64,000 bases of DNA from Scleroderma bovista (Eukaryota; Basidiomycota; Agaricomycetes; Boletales; Sclerodermataceae), in assembly GCA_037178675.1 (NCBI GenBank), contig JAYMGJ010000001.1, positions 1 through 64,000 on the forward strand, in the 5' to 3' direction. A program made the translations under genes and the position numbers. How positions within the stretch are numbered: the stretch's first letter is position 1; the number at the start of each line of letters is the position of its first letter. Positions 18,090-51,565 of this stretch are shown here, piece after piece. The notes under the pieces were generated by a model that saw only the letters and a list, made by a program, of their open reading frames with translations, had not been told where the DNA came from and did no database searches.

Positions 18090-19730
18090 ATGACACGAAC
18101 TAAGCAAACAGCCAAGAAGACTACTGGTGGCACGGCTCCCCGCAGGAAGATCCCCTCCCATTCTCAACGTTCCAGTCTGGATGCCGCACACGATAAGGTG
18201 GTCAAGAGGAACAGCATTCGCGTGCCACCCCGCAAACGACCCACAGACTCGGAGGCAGGCGTTGCTGAACAGACCATGGCTGTCAGTGCTGGGCGCGAAG
18301 CATTGGTGAGTTTACGGTTGGCTCAGGGCTGTCATTGTGCCTACTGACATTTGTTAGTTTTGTTTCCTATGTCAAGACGGCGGGGACTTGTACCAATGCG
18401 GAGCGTGCCCACGCGCAATGTGCACGGTATGCACGCTGGTGCCACAATCGCACCAGGAGGTCGTCAAGACCGCATCCGTCAAGTTCCGGTGCATGAGTTG
18501 TCACTGGCTATTGAATCAATGCAAGAAAGACTTCACTCCGTACACGGTAAGTATTCTTCATATTGTTGGAATCTGGCTTGGATGAACACTCGACAGGGTT
18601 TTACACAGAATGGTGTCCCCGTTCTCCCCAGCTTCTTGCCAGTGACTGGGCGTTTTGAGGTGGCCACGCGAGGGCATATTTTATCGCCCAAGACACTTTT
18701 TCTGCACTTCCACCTGACGCCCATTCCCGCGACTTTCCACGCCTCAGCGGTTCCTCAATCGCTTTCCGAGTTCTTTCCATATGGTGGCCTGGACGTGATC
18801 GACATACCATTCATTTTGGGTACGGATGAAGGTGTTGCAGAGTACGCCTGCCGCGCTGCCTCGTTAGTTGGACAACTCACCGAGAACTACGTTCACGTCA
18901 TTGTTGTCATCACGGATCATACTGACGAGAAGACTGGAGACCTTTTCCTTGGCCCGGATGAGACTGGATGCATGGTGGCTGGTGCCGTTGATGAAGTGAG
19001 TACCTTCTTTTCTCTATGCCCTACATTTCTTGATGCTGTCCATAGGTTTTTTGTGAACTGTTCACGCCATTCATCGAGTTCATGCGAGGGGCAGTGATGT
19101 ACCTCGCTGCCTGTGGTGCATTGGTGCAAAATCAGGAGAGCTTCAAGTTATTGTGTCGCATGGTTTCCAAGTAAGTAATTCTGCTATATCTTGATTATGA
19201 CAATTTTCTGATGTCTTTCAAGGTTTCAAATTGCTCATACGCTAGCATTTCATGCCTCACGTCTACAACCCATCAGCATTGCCGAACCCTTGATGCGGTT
19301 GACCAGGTCGGTTGTTATTTACGGGTTTCAGTTCACTGAGGCGGTGGAAAAGGTACTCACCGAGTCCCCTTTGCTTGGCATGCACACTGGCGTTGTGCAC
19401 CTGGTGTGGAAGGAGTCAGTGGATGGGGCGGATTCATTGGAGGGTTGCAAGTACGTCTGGACACACCGTGAATGCCAACCATGGGGACAACTGCTGCCGA
19501 TCCAGTGCCCCCAATGCGGAACAGTGCAGAAATGGCACTCCATTTACCTCGATGACGGCTCATACAAGTTTGAATGCACATACAGTAAGTGTGGGTATCA
19601 TGGCGCTGACAGGGAAGGGTGGAGGCACCAAATTATTATACAACGTCCAGAAGGTGCCATCATGCTCCCCAAGTGTAATGGTGGAAAGGGGGCTTGGATG
19701 AAGATGGCAATTGAACTCGGACTTTTGTAG
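18090..19730 (+). CDS. H3-tail-mimic / PHD-like finger / CHAT-like protein, paralogue 1 (478 aa)
   Basis: Five exons: 18,090-18,305, 18,358-18,546, 18,597-18,995, 19,046-19,170 and 19,223-19,730, all with GT-AG introns of about 50 bp and phases that sum to a 478-residue frame. The N-terminus reads MTRTKQTAKKTTGGTAPRRK, matching the histone H3 tail around K4 and K9 through G12-G13 and A15-P16-R17; the rest of histone H3 is absent. Exon 2 is a PHD-like finger with eight Cys ligands (residues 74, 77, 86, 89, 94, 97, 117, 120), containing DGGDLYQC..CPRAMC. The middle has VITDHTDEKTGDLFLG (His243) and YLAACGALVQNQESF (Cys291). The C-terminus has WGQLLPIQCPQCG and a later C-x4-C, a likely zinc ribbon. 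The gene appears intact. The chromatin role and a protease-like core are inferences. Confidence 0.85.
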
Positions 19731-23007: not shown

Positions 23008-25800
23008 GTATACTGTTCAGCTAATTCGTGTAATTCAATTTGGTCTTTGTAATTATGTAATCCTACATGAAGCGGAGTCTACAGACTACAACAAATGCGG
23101 CGGTGCGGAGCTTTGATATTTTGCTGTCATTATCTTAGTGCTTGGCCGACTTTTGTCGTGTTGGCTGACCTCTGTCGCCCGTGCCGTGCTTTGATATCTT
23201 GCTATCTTAGCGTTTGGCCGACTTCTGTCGTGTTGGCTGACCTCTGTCGCCCGTGCCGTGCTTTGATATCTTGCTATCTTAGCGTTTGGCCGACTTCTGT
23301 CGCGTTGGCTGACCTCTGTCGCCCGTGCCGTGCTTTGACATTTTGCCGCCATTATCTTAGCGTTTGGCCGACTTCTGTCGTGTTGGCTGACCTCTGTCGC
23401 CCGTGCCGCGCTTTGATATTTTGCTGTCATTATCTTAGCGTTTGGCCGACCTTTGTCGGATTGGCTGACCTCTGTCGCCCGTGCCGTGCTTTGTATATCT
23501 TGCTGGCATTATCTTAGCGTTTGGCCGACCTCTGTCGCCCTGCCGTGCTTTGATATTTTGCCACCATCCTTTTAGCGTTTGGCTTTACAAAGTTTTCGGA
23601 ATCCTTGATCGTTGCGGTGGTACGTTTACCCTTTGGTTTTGGTGGCGCTGATCAGTGCGGAAGTTGCACATTTGCAACAGGACAGTTCCGGCCCAGTCTG
23701 CACCCTGACGCGCACGTACGCCGCTGCACGATTCCTCTCTGGATGTCTGTTTGCCGCATCCCTCTCCCAACAGGCATGCGCCGTCCTCCAATCCTGCATC
23801 AGCCCCATCTTGTTACACACAACAGTGACCGAGTGGCCCACGCCATACTGGGGTAACATCCTCAAATGTGACGTACTTTGGCTTCTCCATCAATAATGTC
23901 AATTGCGATGGGTTTGGATACGTCGATTGTGAAAGATTTGTGGGTCTGGATGGTATCACTCTCGTTAATGTTGTTACAAATCCCGTGGAGGCAACGCTTA
24001 CGGGCCGGAAGGTGTTGTAGAGTGGTGAGTGTGCTCGTGGTTCGTAGTCGTGTGCGCGATGAGCTGCATTGATGCGCATTTCCGGATAATAGAGGGTTGG
24101 ACGACCCCCTTCCCACTGATAAAGAAGAGTCTGATTCTAGTTCACGACGAGCCTGATGAAGCAGGTGGGTCAGTCCAGGCACTGGATCATGTACGATAAG
24201 ACTGAACGCGCCGATTTTTGACAGAGCCGCTCCAGCCAGCCAGGTGCATCGCGGCTGACTCAATGTGGTGAGACCATCGCTCCCTTGTATTGTTCAACAT
24301 TTCTGGCCGTATTACTCTTCGCCTTGAAGACCCACTTACTACTTTACTACTCCCAACTTATCCATGACCTCCCAAGTTCCCATGCCTCTTAGCTGTCCTA
24401 AATCAGCATTTACCGCTTCTTCCACACTCCTTTGTTCAAGCTCAATCACTTCAGCGACTACAGCGGCTATCCCTGACTCTCCAACAATGTCACCTGGAGT
24501 GCTCCAATCGCATTTTGACGCATTTCCTTCAAGAGACGATGCTTAGATACCAGGAGGTAAGCGAGATCGAGAAATGGGGCCTGTTGCTGATCCTACACCT
24601 GCTAACTATTTTTGTAAGGACAGGAAGTGGTACTATGCACACCCGAGAATCGCATACCGGAAGCGGTGTCCTTGACGGTACACGTCACCTGCACGCACGC
24701 ACACGTTTCGCCGTCGACATACGGCTCGATCGTCGTGATTACAAGCTCTTCGAACTCATTCGCGCTCGACTTCCCAACCTGCATTGCCGTCCACCCCACC
24801 TAATTGACTCGTACACTCCACTGACGTGTCTGCGGATTCCCGTCGTCCATGGACCGTCTGCACGCATTCGCGTGCCCTCGCAAGTCCCCTATCTCGCCAC
24901 TCACACTACCTGCCTGCTCCTCCTCGAGCGGCACTCCGTATGTGTTAGGTACGTTGTCATTCACGTCTTCATCGCGCTGATATCTCTTCACATTGTAGTT
25001 TCGTTTGTTGGAGTCATGTGCCTTTGCGCTCCTTCTAGTAGCCTTCATTGACTCCATAAGCCTTCGCCACCAGTTCTCCGCCCGACGCGGCCTTCCTGTC
25101 AACCTCCGCAACGTTCCCGTTCATGTGCTCTTCCGTCACGACGCTTTCCGCCGCCTCCTGCACCCACTCATATGGCCGGCCGTCACCTGGCAGTCTGGTG
25201 TTTCCCGCACTTCTGCAGCCATTTTTGTGTCGTGTACCTAGTACGCCATATTCTTTGTTGCTGACCTCTCTCGACAGGTGCGACTCTTGGGTCTCGGAAT
25301 GCGCACCTGCGCTCGCGAAGTTCCGCAAAAACTTGCACTAACAGCCCTTCCATATGGTGGACGCGCTATCCCCCCTATATTGTGTGAGGAAGCTTTACAG
25401 TAAGCCGGTGGCGAGACATGGACGCAAGTGGCCAGTGCCATGGTGGCGATGTACAGGGAGGACGCCGACGACAGTGACAACCAACAGTAGTGGCAGCGAC
25501 GACGACGACTCGGACGATCTGATGCAGGTGGCCAGTACGACCACGACCACGACCACGACGATGATGTGACGCGGTGGCCAGGTTTCTCCCTTTATGTACA
25601 TGGTTTCTTTTTATATCTATGCTATGTCAATACTATGCACTCTGTGATTATATGCAGCTCGTAAGTGTTTTCAGTGGTTGGTGAGGGTAATCGGAAAAAT
25701 TCGGAGGCAGGGCGGGCAGCCTGGACGCCACTTGGCAATGTCATGTGACGTTTGCTTAGTGTCAATGACGATATGACGCTGATTTGGACGGCGATCTATG
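23008..25800 (+). repeat. Inverted duplication 2, left arm
   Basis: Reverse complement of 48,672-51,565 with few differences over about 2.8 kb. It begins at tatactgttcagct and ends at the ggcgatctatgtactg phrase near 25,800. Frames of 178, 133 and 94 residues are conserved between arms simply because the DNA is; none shows a recognisable domain. An acidic stretch near 25,470-25,570 (GAC/GACGAC repeats) differs in repeat number between arms. Confidence 0.92.
23095..23590 (-). repeat. Tandem repeat of a 72-78 bp coding-like unit (left arm)
   Basis: Read on the minus strand each unit gives ARATEVSQHDRSRPNAKI preceded by a short variable AKYQS-type segment. Some units lack 6 bp and stay in frame. 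The right arm (50,890-51,490) holds more units and keeps one frame for 165 residues. Not recognised as a known protein repeat. Confidence 0.75.
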
Positions 25801-33800: not shown

Positions 33801-34822
33801 TGCGTATGGACGGAGCGCACGGAATCACGACATCACTGGGTTTAATCTCGGACGGGGGTATCGTTGGTCTCGCATCGCCCAGCTTAGTCTCCGCTACTAG
33901 GTAGGCAGAGTCTAACGACGACCGTCGCTTGACCGAAGAAAAATGCATCACCTTCGCACGACATCACAACATCAAGATGACCCTACAAGCTAAGCTGTGC
34001 AAGCTCTGCTTGTACCTCGCTTGGGGCCTGGGCAATTCAACTGGTTGCATGGAAGACAACGAAGCAGGTAACTTACCACATGCCAACGAAAGCCAAAGAA
34101 TCCAAATAGTTCTTTGAAACGTCGAGTGGGATCCACCGGACCTATTGGCAGTTAAAATTCTCCAGTGAGCTGCGATCAATCAGCCTTCAAAGACAAAATA
34201 TGCATGAAGTGAGGGTCATGAGGCGCCCAAATATGGTCCGGATTTCAGGTGACGCTCCAGCACCAGCGCTACGCCATGTGAACACGTTGGTAATCTGATT
34301 GGCATTGCCCACAAACTGAGAAGCAATCATCATCAGACAAAAAAGGCAGGCAAGTGAGAGAAACCTTGCCTAGCATTAAACCCAACCCACAGAATATGAG
34401 GGGGATCTGTCTGATTCCATGGCCCGTGCAGGCCCCCATTGACTGCAAGTTCACTGAGAGAGCAACGCCTGGCTGCTGATGCAACGGCCTGAGGGTGATG
34501 CACTCAAACACCAAGCTGTACCAAGTACAAGTTCACACACCGTCCTTATTCCACGAACCGCCAAGACAATACCTTGCACAGGGGAACGTGAAGTCAGGAA
34601 GGTAACCACAGCACGCTGTCAGAGCTTACCTCAGGACGCAGTACAGTACTGGGGTACACTTGCAACCGATCTAATGGGACGTGACACTGGGTGACAGGGA
34701 CGGAGAAAGTACATCAGAATGCGTGCCTGCACAAAGCCACCTAAAAAAGGGGACACCTACACCACCCCTTTGACCACGCATGCTCAGGTCGGGGGTCCCT
34801 GGCCTCGGCTGACTCGATTAGA

Positions 34823-35250
34823 GGGTACCTGGCCTCGCCCAAGTCGAGCGAGCGTACTTCGCCTCCCCCAAGTCGAGCAGAGGGTACCTGGCCTCGCCCA
34901 AGTCGAGCGAGCGTACTTCGCCTCCCCCAAGTCGAGCAGAGGGTACCTGGCCTCGCCCAAGTCGAGCGAGCGTACTTCGCCTCCCCCAAGTCGAGCAGAG
35001 GGTACCTGGCCTCGCCCAAGTCGAGCGAGCGTACTTCGCCTCCCCCAAGTCGAGCAGAGGGTACCTGGCCTCGCACAAGTCGAGCGAGCGTACTTCGCCT
35101 CCCCCAAGTCGAGCAGAGGGTACCTGGCCTCGCACAAGTCGAGCGAGCGTACTTCGCCTCCCCCAAGTCGAGCAGAGGGTACCTGGCCTCGCACAAGTCG
35201 AGCGAGCGTACTTCGCCTCCCCCAAGTCGAGCAGAGCGTACTTCGCCCCG
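34823..35250. repeat. 59-bp tandem array, seven units
   Basis: The word gggtacct recurs at 34,823 and every 59 bp to 35,177. Each unit is two related halves, gtacctggcctcgc.caagtcgagcga and gcgtacttcgcctcccccaagtcgagcaga. The first four units have gcctcgcccaag, the last three gcctcgcacaag. As 59 is not a multiple of three, each frame cycles through all three readings and no stop appears, which creates 150-180-residue false ORFs on both strands. Confidence 0.95.
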
Positions 35251-35559
35251 CCTGAGTCAATAACAGCATACACCACCCAGTCAGTTAGATCGAAGGAAGA
35301 TCCACCAGAGACGGCGGATGCAGCGCTGGCATCATAATTAAGTTGCAGGTTAAAATGGAAATTCACGTGAGCACAAACGATCTGCCGAAATGTCAGTCTC
35401 TACATACATCCACATCTGAAAAGTAATGAGCCCCTATGGTAAATCACTTTGAAAACCTCTACTTACAATAAACTGCAGCGAGAATGGATACGTGTCCTGC
35501 CAAACAAAGCGGGGACAACAAGCACATCATAGGGGAAGTTGTAAATTGGAATATCGTGG

Positions 35560-45053: not shown

Positions 45054-46771
45054 ATGGCTAGGACTAAGCAGACAGCAAAAAAAACAACCTCGGACTTCGC
45101 TTCACGAATCAAATTGACAGGAGTGCCACCCCGCACCAAATGCCGCATAATTCTGAAGCTGCCAGCCAGAAGCACCTCACAAGCCCAGGTTTCACGCAGA
45201 AGTCTGGAATCATACTGTCCGAATTCTAGCCCATTGACGTCACCTCCATCATCTCCGATGGAGGTCCTCAGTGACACTATTGGCGACAGCAACAACGTGA
45301 GTAAATTTGGATTGCATCTTACAGTGCTCACACCAAGCTACAGTACTGCTACCTCTGTCATGACGGTGGGGAAAGCTTCTGCTGTAACTTCTGTCCACGT
45401 GTCGTGTGCCACCGATGTCTAGGCATGCTGGAGCCAGTTTCCAATGAAGTTTTCGCTGCCGATGTCAACTTCAAGTGTCCAGGCTGCCATGAACTTGAAG
45501 ATCGCGTTGCCAACCGTCCACCAACTCCATATTTTGTAAGTTTGTTGTGAATACTGTAAATTGAACTAACATTGGCTGCAGGCATTTACACACATGGTAA
45601 ATGGAGAAACTACACATGTCCTCAACAAACCAATTATCGTGCGAGGAGTTTGTGAAAGAACATCAAAGTCGCAAGTTTGCGCCGAGTCAACCTTCATATT
45701 ACATTTAATCTGTACAGGAATGAACACACGAGGCTCCCTTCCCTTGCTTCTCAAGGCATCTCTAGAAGATTATCATCCGGCAGATATGCTTCGTTACGAA
45801 GAAGTCATTTTTGACTTCGGGTCACACCAGAAACTGGATCAATGGAAGAGCAAGATTCAAAAGCTTGAGACTGTCCTCGCTACGTGCAAATTCAAACGGA
45901 AGATAATATTTGTGACGGTCCACAGTGAGCTAGAACGTGGTGACCTGTTTGCAGGCACGGATGAACATGGGGATAGTGTCTCGATGGAGGTGGAGGAGGT
46001 ACGTGCCATCAAAAGCATTCGTTTCTACACTTTCCTTATATTTCTTTTTAAGTTCATGGACTACTTGTTCTTTGGGCATCTGAGAAAAGTTGTTGCCACA
46101 TCCACACTGTTCATTCTTGCATGTGGACCTCTCGTAGGGTTTCAAGATTCCTTTCTGGCGCTGAAGAGATCCATAAAAAGGTGAGTATTTATTGTTCATT
46201 TACAATGAACCATACTAACCACTCCCGAAGCCTCCAGCCCGAATATACAATTGCATTCAGTGCGAACAATTTCATCAGTGCGGTGCTTAAGCCGTTCATT
46301 GTGGCATATGCTACACATGTACTCATTCAAGGACGTACTTTACACGGCGCAATCCAGGATCTCCTCAATTGTTCCCCGGAGATGCGAGCGCACACTGATC
46401 TCCTGCTCTTTCATGTACAGGGCTCGCCATTGACAAATATGGCCTCCCTCGCATCTTCCCTCGCACTGAAGACACCTCAGACTGGCAACCCTTCTGTCCT
46501 TTGTTACAGGTACTCTTGGTACCATAGCCATCGTCGTCCATGGGGCGTAGCTCTTCCCATGGGATGCCCTGGTTGTGGCTGCATCCGCTCATGGCTCCCA
46601 TCCAAAGCGCATCCACAAAGTGCTCATCCCAAGGCACGCATAACCTCGTGCAAGTCCGATAAGTGTACATTCAAGATATGTACACAGCCCCTACCATACA
46701 AGTACGACCTCCTTCAGAGTGACAAGGTGTCTGGGTGGCTTAAATACACTATTTGTAGCGAGATTCTTTAG
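45054..46771 (+). CDS. H3-tail-mimic / PHD-like finger / CHAT-like protein, paralogue 2 (506 aa)
   Basis: Five exons: 45,054-45,296, 45,344-45,535, 45,582-45,998, 46,053-46,180 and 46,231-46,771, with GT-AG introns and consistent phases. The N-terminus is MARTKQTAKKTT; after Met removal it would begin with Ala exactly as H3 does. A Ser/Pro-rich linker follows, then a PHD-like finger with Cys at residues 83, 86, 95, 98, 103, 106, 126 and 129 (CHDGGESFCC..CPRVVC), the same spacing as in the 18,090 gene. Next come FVTVHSELERGDLFAG (His259) and LFILACGPLVGFQDSF (Cys308), then RPWGVALPMGCPGCG and SCKSDKC. Intact. The intron at 45,999-46,052 is a multiple of three and stop-free, so retention is possible. 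Outside the motifs the two paralogues differ greatly. Confidence 0.85.
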
Positions 46772-48671: not shown

Positions 48672-51565
48672 TGAGCAGTTAGATCGCCGTCCAAATCAGC
48701 GTCATCTCGTCATTGACACTGAGCAAACGTCACATGACGTTGCGAGGTGGCGTCCTCCCAGGCTGCCCGCCCTGCCTCCGAATTTTTCCGATTACCCTCA
48801 CCAACCACTGAAAACACTTACGAGCTGCATATAATCACAGAGTGCATAGTATTGACATAGCATAGATATAAAAAGAAACCATGTACATAAAGGGAGAAAC
48901 CTGGCCACCGCGTTGATCACATCATCGTCGTGGTCGCGGTCGTACTGGTCATCTGCATCAGATCGTCCGAGTCGTCGTCATCGTCGCTGCCACTACTGTG
49001 GGTTGTCACTGTCGTCGGCGTCCTCCCTGTACATCGCCACCATGGCACTGGCCACTTGCGTCCATGTCTCGCCACCGGCTTATTGTAAAGCTTCCTCACT
49101 CAATATAGGGGGAAAAGCGCGTCGACCATATGGAAGGGTTGTTAGTGCAAGTCTTTGCGAAACCGCGGAGCGCAGAGGCGCATTCCGAGACCCAAGAGTC
49201 GCACCTGTCGAGAGAGGTCAGTATGGCGTACTAGGTACGCGACACAAAAATGGCTGCAGAAATGCGGGAAACACCAGACTGCCAGGTGACGGCCAGCCAT
49301 ATGAGTGGGTGCAGGAGGCGGCGGAAAGCGTCGTGACGGAAGAGCACATGAACGGGAATGTTCCGGAGGTCGACAGGAAGGCCGTGTCGGGCGGAGAACT
49401 GGTGACGAAGGCTTATGGAGTCAATGAAGGCTACAAGAAGGAGCATAAAGGCACATGACTCCAACAAACGAAACTACAGTGTGAAGAGATATCAGCGCGA
49501 TGAAGACGTGAATGACAACGTACCTAACACATACGGAGTGCCGCTCGAGGAGGAGCAGGCAGGTAGTGTGAGTGGCGAGATAGGGGACTTGCGAGGGCAC
49601 GCGAATGCGTGCAGACGGTCCATGGACGACGGGAATCCGCAGACACGTCAGTGGAGTGTACGAGTCAATTAGGTGGGGTGGACGGCAATGCAGGTTGGGA
49701 AGTCGAGTGCGAATGAGTTCGAAGAGCTTGTAATCACGGCGATCGAGCCGTATGTCGACGGCGAAACGTGTGCGTGCATGCAGGTGACGTGTACCGTCAC
49801 GGACACCGCTTCCGGTATGCGCTTCTCGGGTGTGCATAGTACCACTTCCTGTCCTTACAAAAATAGTTAGCAGGTGTAGGATCAGCAACAGGCCCCATTT
49901 CTCGATCTCGCTTACCTCCTGGTATCTAAGCATCGTCTCTTGAAGGAAATGCGTCAAAATGCGATTGGAGCACTCCAGGTGACATTGTTGGAGAGTCAGG
50001 GATAGCCGCTGTAGTCGCTGAAGTGATTGAGCTTGAAAAAAGGAGTGTGGAAGAAGCGGTAAATGCTGATTTAGGACAGCTGAGAGGCATGGGAACTTGG
50101 GAGGTCATGGATAAGTTGGGAGTAGTAAAGTAGTAAGCGGGTCTTCAAGGCGAAGAGTAATACGGCCAGAAATGTTGAACAATACAAGGGAGCGATGGTC
50201 TCACCACATTGAGTCAGCCGCGATGCACCTGGCTGGCTGGAGCGGCTCTGTCAAAAATCGGCGCGTTCAGTCTTATCGTACATGATCCAGTGCCTGGACT
50301 GACCCACCTGCTTCATCAGGCTCGTCGTGAACTAGAATCAGACTCTTCTTTATCAGTGGGAAGGGGGTCATCCAACCCTCTATTATCCGGAAATGCGCAT
50401 CAATGCAGCTCATCGCGCACACGACTACGAACCACGAGCACACTCACCACTCTACAACACCTTCCGGCCCGTAAGCGTTGCCTCCGCGGGATTTGTAACA
50501 ACATTAACGAGAGTGATACCATCCAGACCCACAAGTTTTTCACAATCGACGTATCCAAACCCATCGCAATTGACATTATTGATGGAGAGGCCAAAGTACG
50601 TCACATTTGAGGATGTTAACCCAGTATGACGTGGACCACTCGGTCACTGTTGTGTGTAAAAAGATGGGTCTGATGCAGGATTGGAGGACGGCGCATGCCT
50701 GTTGGGAGAGGGATGCAGTAAACAGACATCCAGAGAGGAATCGTGCAGCGGCGTACGTGCGCGTCAGGGTGCATACTGGGCCGGAACTGTCCTGTTGCAA
50801 ATGTGCAACTTCCGCACTGATCAGCGCCACCAAAACCAAAGGGTAAACGTACCACCGCAACGATCAAGGATTCCGAAAACTTTGTAAAGCCAAACGCTAA
50901 AAGGATGGTGGCAAAATATCAAAGCATGGCACGGGCGACAGAGGTCAGCCAACACGACAAAGGTCGGCCAAACGCTAAGATAATGGCAGCAAGATATACA
51001 AAGCACGGCACGGGCGACAGAGGTCAGCCAATCCGACAAAGGTCGGCCAAACGCTAAGATAATGACAGCAAAATATCAAAGCGCGGCACGGGCGACAGAG
51101 GTCAGCCAACACGACAGAAGTCGGCCAAACGCTAAGATAATGGCGGCAAAATGTCAAAGCACGGCACGGGCGACAGAGGTCAGCCAACGCGACAGAAGTC
51201 GGCCAAGTGCGAAGATAATAGCAGCAAAATATCAAAGCATGGCACGGGCGACAGAGGTCAACCAACACGACAAAAGTCGGCCAAACGCTAAGATAATGGC
51301 AGCAAAATACCAAAGCACGGCACGGGCGACAGAGGTCGGCCAACGCGACAGAAGTCGGCCAAATGCGAAGATAATGGCAGCAAAATATCAAAGCACGGCA
51401 CGGGCGACAGAGGTCAGCCAACGCGACAGAAGTCGGCCAAATGCGAAGATAATGGCAGCAAAATACCAAAGCTCCGCAACGCCGCATTTGTTGTCTCTGC
51501 TTCATGTAGGATTACATAATTACAAAGCCCAAATTGAATTACCCGAATTACATAGCTGAACAGTA
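48672..51565 (-). repeat. Inverted duplication 2, right arm
   Basis: Reverse complement of 23,008-25,800, with only scattered substitutions and a larger tandem array. It ends exactly at the TA of the adjacent MITE. From 48,285 to 48,670 no gene is recognised. Confidence 0.92.
50890..51490 (+). repeat. Tandem repeat of 72-78 bp unit (right arm)
   Basis: Plus-strand frame 51,062-51,559 reads repeats of ARATEVSQ.D.SRPNAKIM.AKYQS. The first units (50,890-51,060) are in other frames. More units than in the left arm, so the array changed length after duplication. Confidence 0.8.

Follow-up and report, generated by a model that had tools for sequence, protein, structure and literature searches.

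A gene of Scleroderma bovista whose product begins as a histone H3 tail and continues with a PHD/ADD-like finger and a predicted caspase-like domain

The first 64,000 nucleotides of contig JAYMGJ010000001.1 of the Scleroderma bovista assembly GCA_037178675.1 (the window) carry on the forward strand, at positions 18090-19730, a gene of five exons that encodes 478 residues without an internal stop and whose product begins with a mimic of the N-terminus of histone H3. The part of this mimic that corresponds to H3 1-7 is the slowest-evolving stretch of the protein. The gene belongs to an agaricomycete family of proteins built of four parts, namely a mimic of H3 residues 1-17, a variable basic linker, a PHD/ADD-like zinc finger, and a domain of predicted caspase/CHAT fold followed by a cysteine segment. 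The tail, the linker, the finger, the conservation of a His-Cys pair and the selection on the first tail residues are read from sequences, and the caspase/CHAT fold is taken from a structural model.

The H3-like tail and its conservation

The introns of the gene are of the GT-AG type and 50-52 nt long, the ATG lies at 18090, and upstream of it the frame stays open with no earlier Met. The encoded protein starts with MTRTKQTAKKTTGGTAPRRK, whose residues 2-18 are identical to H3 1-17 at 14 of 17 positions. Compared with the H3 encoded by three genes of the same genome (MARTKQTARKTTGGKAPRKQ), 14 of H3 residues 1-19 are retained (R2, T3, K4, Q5, T6, A7, K9, T10, T11, G12, G13, A15, P16 and R17), and A1, R8, K14, K18 and Q19 are changed. 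A preliminary description of this DNA, made from the sequence alone, had proposed that the protein starts as an H3 tail; translation and the comparison with H3 of the same genome indicate that the tail is genuine and that every residue listed there as retained is correct. The tail, consisting of the Met and the residues aligned to H3 1-18 (MTRTKQTAKKTTGGTAPRR), occupies 18090..18146 (forward strand, as for all exons below). The remainder of exon 1 (18147..18305; the whole exon is 18090-18305) encodes a fast-evolving basic linker with KRNSIRVPPRKRP, which reads by eye like a nuclear localization signal.

When a 135-residue N-terminal query was searched against PDB sequences, residues 1-39 matched H3 chains (best E 2.2e-4) and PHD fingers were matched separately. 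The 478-residue protein has no histone fold, PF00125 being unmatched at E values up to 10 in a Pfam search. A chance resemblance to H3 is ruled out, since the PDB search finds H3 and since 42 proteins of the family carry an H3-like tail immediately behind a Met; the substitution pattern described below points the same way.

Relatives occur in Scleroderma, Pisolithus, Suillus, Amanita and Trametes. A first protein search rendered 12 matches, including Amanita muscaria, Scleroderma citrinum, Trametes cinnabarina and eight from Suillus, and a profile search rendered 17. When bodies of clade B and C proteins, stripped of their tails, served as queries, 76 matches were obtained, those named being from Pisolithus, Scleroderma and Suillus. 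Tails were surveyed in 106 proteins, made up of 93 relatives and 13 gene models of the S. bovista genome. An H3-like tail directly after Met was found in 42 of them, 35 at residue 2 and 7 behind a Met inside the annotated protein (41 distinct tails, e.g. MARTKQTAPKSTGGLAPRKN in Suillus discolor, MTHTKQTAKKTTGGTAPRRR in Scleroderma citrinum and MARTKQTSKRNVGDKPGR in Pisolithus orientalis); many of the other 64 proteins are fragments. Tails were called by their likeness to H3 1-17, so that the following totals over the 41 distinct tails lean upward: position 1 is A in 33, P in 5 and T in 3, R2 and T3 are each kept in 38, Q5 and T6 each in 31, A7 in 32, K9 in 33 (with Arg in the remaining 8), G13 in 34, A15 in 35, P16 in 28 and R17 in 33. 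On the other hand, R8, K14 and K18 are mostly lost, being kept in 4, 3 and 6 tails, respectively. As R8 is presumably important for H3K9 methyltransferases, the scarcity of R8 and K14 would speak in part against a K9-type modification of the tail.

Among relatives that are both Met-started and finger-bearing, 17 of 26 have a called tail. In a protein tree of 33 tail-less bodies, tail-bearing rows lie on both sides of the midpoint root and in the larger starred clades. Because the tree has no outgroup, it is likely, not proven, that the tail is ancestral to the family.

Seven paralogues, drawn from clades A and B, were compared for non-synonymous divergence (dN); C383 and C271 carry stops. Between the clades, dN was 0.14 for residues 2-8 and 0.50 for residues 9-18, and further along the protein it was 1.57 (linker, residues 20-72), 0.63 (finger), 1.16 (residues 134-230), 0.96 (caspase core) and 0.73 (residues 341-420). 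Synonymous sites were at or close to saturation in this comparison. Within clade B, dN was 0.07 for residues 2-8. The first 18 codons of the gene differ from those of the H3 genes of the genome by 5-9 synonymous and 3 non-synonymous changes. These synonymous differences from H3, together with the lowest dN at H3 1-7, therefore indicate that selection keeps the protein sequence. A recent capture of a host H3 exon is ruled out by the same codon differences. An ancient origin is possible: in one H3 gene (L064, on contig C119) the first exon measures 60 nt and its end falls exactly behind Q19, where the H3 likeness of the mimic stops, which may point to an H3 first exon as the source by exon shuffling. 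The three H3 genes of the genome (C119:82147, C385:139644 and C477:8284; L064-L066) encode Thr at position 10 (ARKTTGG) and not Ser10, the usual residue of H3 and a mitotic phosphorylation site.

The zinc finger and the predicted caspase-like domain

The finger corresponds exactly to exon 2 (18358..18546), in agreement with its first description as exon-bounded, and includes Cys 74, 77, 86, 89, 94, 97, 117 and 120 as well as His121. In 18 chosen fingers of the family the eight zinc ligands are invariant or nearly so, with the cross-brace, PHD-type spacing and a DGG motif, and in a wider alignment 78-94% of the proteins covering the zinc-ligand columns have Cys there. The fifth ligand is Cys where PHD fingers usually have His, which we take to be a feature of ADD fingers. 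The exon matches PF00628 over the full profile length (1-47) with 16.4 bits, below the curated cut-off of 24. Fold searches predict a PHD/ADD fold, and a PDB profile search places the finger nearest in sequence to ATRX ADD, CHD4 and AIRE, so that the assignment as PHD-like is borne out. The finger thus shares the eight ligands, the cross-brace spacing, the DGG motif and the predicted fold with H3-reading fingers (ATRX ADD, DNMT3A ADD, AIRE PHD1 and CHD4 PHD), and it differs from them in the Cys at the fifth ligand, in its score below the PF00628 cut-off and in that an acidic residue presumed to contact R2 of H3 is often missing.

Two other identities were considered for this exon. The CK2-beta zinc ribbon scores above PHD (22.6 bits, E 1.1e-4), yet below its own cut-off of 27, and was set aside because the fold and PDB profile searches give PHD/ADD and the match, confined to residues 14-52 of the 63, misses the first zinc pair. 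For KDZ transposon proteins, which we take to carry CxC fingers, the Pfam search gave no such match and the literature search none for these terms.

The rest of the protein is predicted to contain a caspase/CHAT-like domain. In the structural model of a relative, P0003, residues about 160-380 are predicted to adopt this fold, and its His241 and Cys292 follow successive strands (233-239 and 284-290). The corresponding pair in the S. bovista protein, His243 and Cys291, is near-invariant, with His in 78 of 79 and Cys in 74 of 76 aligned proteins. Exon 3 (18597..18995) encodes the first part of the putative domain, including His243 (codon 18918-18920), exon 4 (19046..19170) continues it with Cys291 (codon 19112-19114), and exon 5 (19223..19730, stop codon 19728-19730) encodes its end and then, as judged from the translation and alignment, a ribbon-like segment with four cysteines (C405, C408, C428 and C433). 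The architecture of tail plus reader given in the preliminary description was hence correct as to both elements and incomplete, since the predicted caspase/CHAT-like domain with its His-Cys pair and the C-terminal cysteine segment had been overlooked.

Paralogues and genomic context

The S. bovista genome (51.8 Mb in 850 contigs) contains many copies of the family. The degenerate pattern M-[APST]-R-T-K-Q-T-A-x-K was found at 12 places, corresponding to the three H3 genes and nine family copies, and another pattern added the copy C271. A genome search with the 478-residue protein rendered 84 exon-level matches. Upstream H3-like starts were sought at 26 paralogous loci: 15 reached a score of at least 42 against the H3 tail, near-identical copies being counted, and the other 11 had a weaker H3-like start or none.

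A second paralogue in the window, belonging to clade B and starting with MARTKQTAKKTTSDF, was placed at 45054..46771 of the forward strand by spliced alignment and genome searches (exons 45054-45296, 45338-45535, 45582-45998, 46053-46180, 46231-46414 and 46472-46768; stop codon 46769-46771). Its exon borders are less certain than those of the first gene, a second run having placed the last exons differently. The same pair of paralogues is spaced 131 kb on C1 (45054, 176243), 126 kb on C193 (128144, 1764) and 46 kb on C12 (66957, 20517), and around paralogue 2 the sequence is identical in these pairs where compared, which may reflect a duplicated region or separated haplotypes.

No near-identical copy of the gene at 18090-19730 was found in the DNA search, and its flanks are mosaics of dispersed repeat fragments. 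Other copies are identical to one another: C74, C127 and C324 share 4.6 kb, of which C252 has 3.9 kb in common with them. At 10 kb upstream, C74, C127 and C252 still match at 97-100% and C324 matches none of the three; at 10 kb downstream the four do not match one another. This group may represent a mobile element or a large duplication.

Some copies depart from the common form. One (C491:6919-3790) is interrupted by about 1.5 kb of inserted sequence. Clade C copies (C7, C30, C59, C112 and others) have MARTKCTARK and, about 20 residues further on, another stretch resembling H3, such as RKRSAGGRAHRR; two of them, C59 and C112, have TGA as the R2 codon. The window also contains an inverted repeat (23538-25250 / 49222-50934; 1713 nt, 98% complementary, 24 kb apart) and tandem arrays of a 59-nt unit (34731-35317) and a 78-nt unit (50921-51544).

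Possible roles of the tail and their significance

The explanation that we consider best, although as a whole we would not give it quite an even chance, is that the tail and the finger together control the protease-like domain. After removal of the Met, the mimic of H3 1-17 would be exposed and would serve as ligand to a reader of H3 tails, the foremost candidate being the family's own finger, on the same molecule or on a sister one. Binding of tail and finger would keep the protease-like domain off, or would join molecules into an assembly. The switch would come through competition by nucleosomal H3 that is unmodified at K4, or through loss of the tail. The linker that joins the tail to the reader comprises about 50 residues, and the occurrence of tail and H3-type reader on one chain with such a fast-evolving linker suggests that the tail is bound by the reader of the same chain or of a neighbour. 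The logic can be likened to that of DNMT3A, whose ADD domain, according to PMC11875203, blocks the enzyme until H3 unmethylated at K4 (H3K4me0) is bound; here, the H3 tail would be supplied by the same protein.

Several observations weigh against this explanation. As to the tail, K4 is retained in only 26 of the 41 distinct tails (Arg in 7), and nine of the 26 Met-started, finger-bearing relatives have no called tail. Three of these nine may be mis-annotated, with a tail-like stretch lying inside P0001 and P0052 and P0010 beginning mid-tail, possibly through annotation; no tail is seen in P0012, P0019, P0020, P0029, P0032 and P0075. A downstream Met (residue 63) could initiate a tail-less form. 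The likeness to H3 extends to R17, whereas PHD fingers usually read fewer residues, though residues 9-18 show no special constraint (dN within clade B of 0.50, against 0.23 for the finger and 0.25 for the core). As to the finger, the 478-residue protein has G in the column after the third zinc Cys, at which no more than 18 of 48 proteins have D; an acidic residue at this place (Asp in AIRE) is, we assume, the contact of H3 R2, so that the G would speak in part against canonical self-reading. The acidic residue is absent from the aligned clade B fingers as well. As to the predicted domain, the Pfam models for caspase (Peptidase_C14) and CHAT are both unmatched, a departure at the sequence level from known caspase-fold cysteine peptidases (caspases and CHAT, such as SAVED-CHAT 8tl0), and a one-sequence hhalign comparison with one CHAT protein of the same genome was negative, being uninformative as a single sequence. 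The top Foldseek row for P0003 is an esterase-like hydrolase, beside SAVED-CHAT. An identity as such a hydrolase was set aside, as none is present among the 50 best VIA rows, which are led by CHAT and caspases, and as the His-Cys pair fits the latter. Moreover, in the P0003 model the tail is disordered (pLDDT about 30) and is not seen to dock.

Some of these points favour partners in trans, and the main rival, a serious contender to which we nevertheless give a smaller share of our confidence, is that the tail acts as a decoy or recruiter. It would bind readers, writers or erasers of other complexes (candidates are RbAp48/p55-type WD40 proteins, SET1/COMPASS, LSD1-type demethylases and other PHD proteins), recruiting the protease-like protein or blocking them, with the finger itself reading real H3. 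A tail that resembles H3 over 1-17, beyond what one PHD finger should usually need, is consistent with this, and so is the strong conservation of residues 2-8 in clade B, since the putative R2-contact acid, often absent from the family's fingers, is absent from the clade B fingers aligned. Two Suillus tails read RTKQTAP, with Pro at position 8, and can be likened to the RRKQxxP motif of FOG1/SALL4, which we take to bind RBBP4. There is also a precedent, in that DPPA3 and PAF15 bind the PHD finger of UHRF1 through a VRT that replaces the ART of H3 (PMC11187062). On the other hand, a pure decoy would not need an H3-type finger in the same chain as the tail, and since nuclear H3 tails are in vast excess, it would need a high local concentration.

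An improbable alternative is that the caspase-like domain clips H3 tails and that the mimic is a built-in pseudosubstrate, or a propeptide removed by self-cleavage. The predicted caspase/CHAT-like fold, the near-invariant His-Cys pair and an H3-like tail on the same chain would fit such an enzyme, as would R17, if metacaspases cut after basic residues as we assume. However, constraint is strongest at 1-7 and not around a cut site, and K18 and Q19 are not conserved, so that a clip site near A21, presumably that of other H3 proteases, is not kept. That the proteins are pseudoenzymes, or recently duplicated selfish genes whose tail came from an H3 exon by shuffling and persists only through recent origin, is very improbable and largely refuted, for although copies are numerous, including several that stops or an insertion have disrupted and several that are identical over at least 3.9 kb, and although an H3 first exon ends where the similarity ends, the His-Cys pair is nearly invariant, and recent origin cannot explain a tail that is shared by Suillus, Scleroderma and Pisolithus and whose residues 2-8 are kept while its synonymous sites are saturated between clades.

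With regard to known systems, the tail is like that of H3 in its identities and in its position directly behind the initiator Met, and the family differs from H3 in lacking the histone fold, in having mostly lost R8, K14 and K18, and in its codons. Two man-made arrangements resemble the one preferred here, in which the tail is read by the finger of the same protein. One is PDB 3a1b, which we take to be an engineered fusion of an H3 tail to the DNMT3A ADD domain. The other is the epigenome editor CHARM, an artificial protein whose free H3 tail can act on the DNMT3A ADD; its free N-terminus seems critical and, in first tests, only a 40-residue linker worked (PMC11875203). Like the S. bovista proteins, both place a free H3 tail at the N-terminus and either join it to an H3-reading ADD domain or let it act on one; unlike them, both are artificial and act on DNMT3A, whereas the S. 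bovista family is natural, is under selection and has a protease-like domain. DPPA3 and PAF15 likewise occupy a PHD finger with an H3 ART-like motif; the one named in PMC11187062 is the three-residue VRT, in unrelated proteins, in contrast to the 17 residues of the present family, which come with their own finger and a caspase-like domain.

The preliminary description knew of no described family with this architecture. This agrees with our results: no Pfam family matched the 478-residue protein above cut-off, and no such family was found in the open-access literature (titles and abstract openings; subscription papers and preprints lay outside the scope). On these two grounds the combination of an H3 tail, an H3-type reader and a caspase-like domain appears to be undescribed, although histone mimicry is known as a principle. 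A bolder reading, which is doubtful at present, is that of a natural chromatin-gated, self-recognising protease. Its H3 mimic would occupy the finger of the same or a neighbouring molecule and in this way restrain or assemble the caspase-like enzyme, until unmodified nucleosomal H3 competes and switches it. Pairs of tail and finger specific to each paralogue would then amount to a code of recognition, and nature would have its own version of the engineered H3-tail::ADD fusions.

The H3 N-terminus is among the most studied chromatin peptides, and no natural non-histone family with about 17 N-terminal H3 residues was found in the same literature. The substitutions within the family resemble an alanine-scan experiment, in which A/P/T1, R2, T3, Q5, T6, A7, K/R9, G13, A15, P16 and R17 mostly stay and R8, K14 and K18 mostly go, and they hint at the face of the tail that is needed by its partner. 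By uniting histone mimicry, a PHD-like reader and a putative caspase-like domain in one chain, the family appears to incorporate a central chromatin signal into what may be a self-regulated enzyme, and it offers a direct test of protease gating by the state of chromatin and of an extension of the autoinhibitory logic of H3 and ADD to organisms other than animals.
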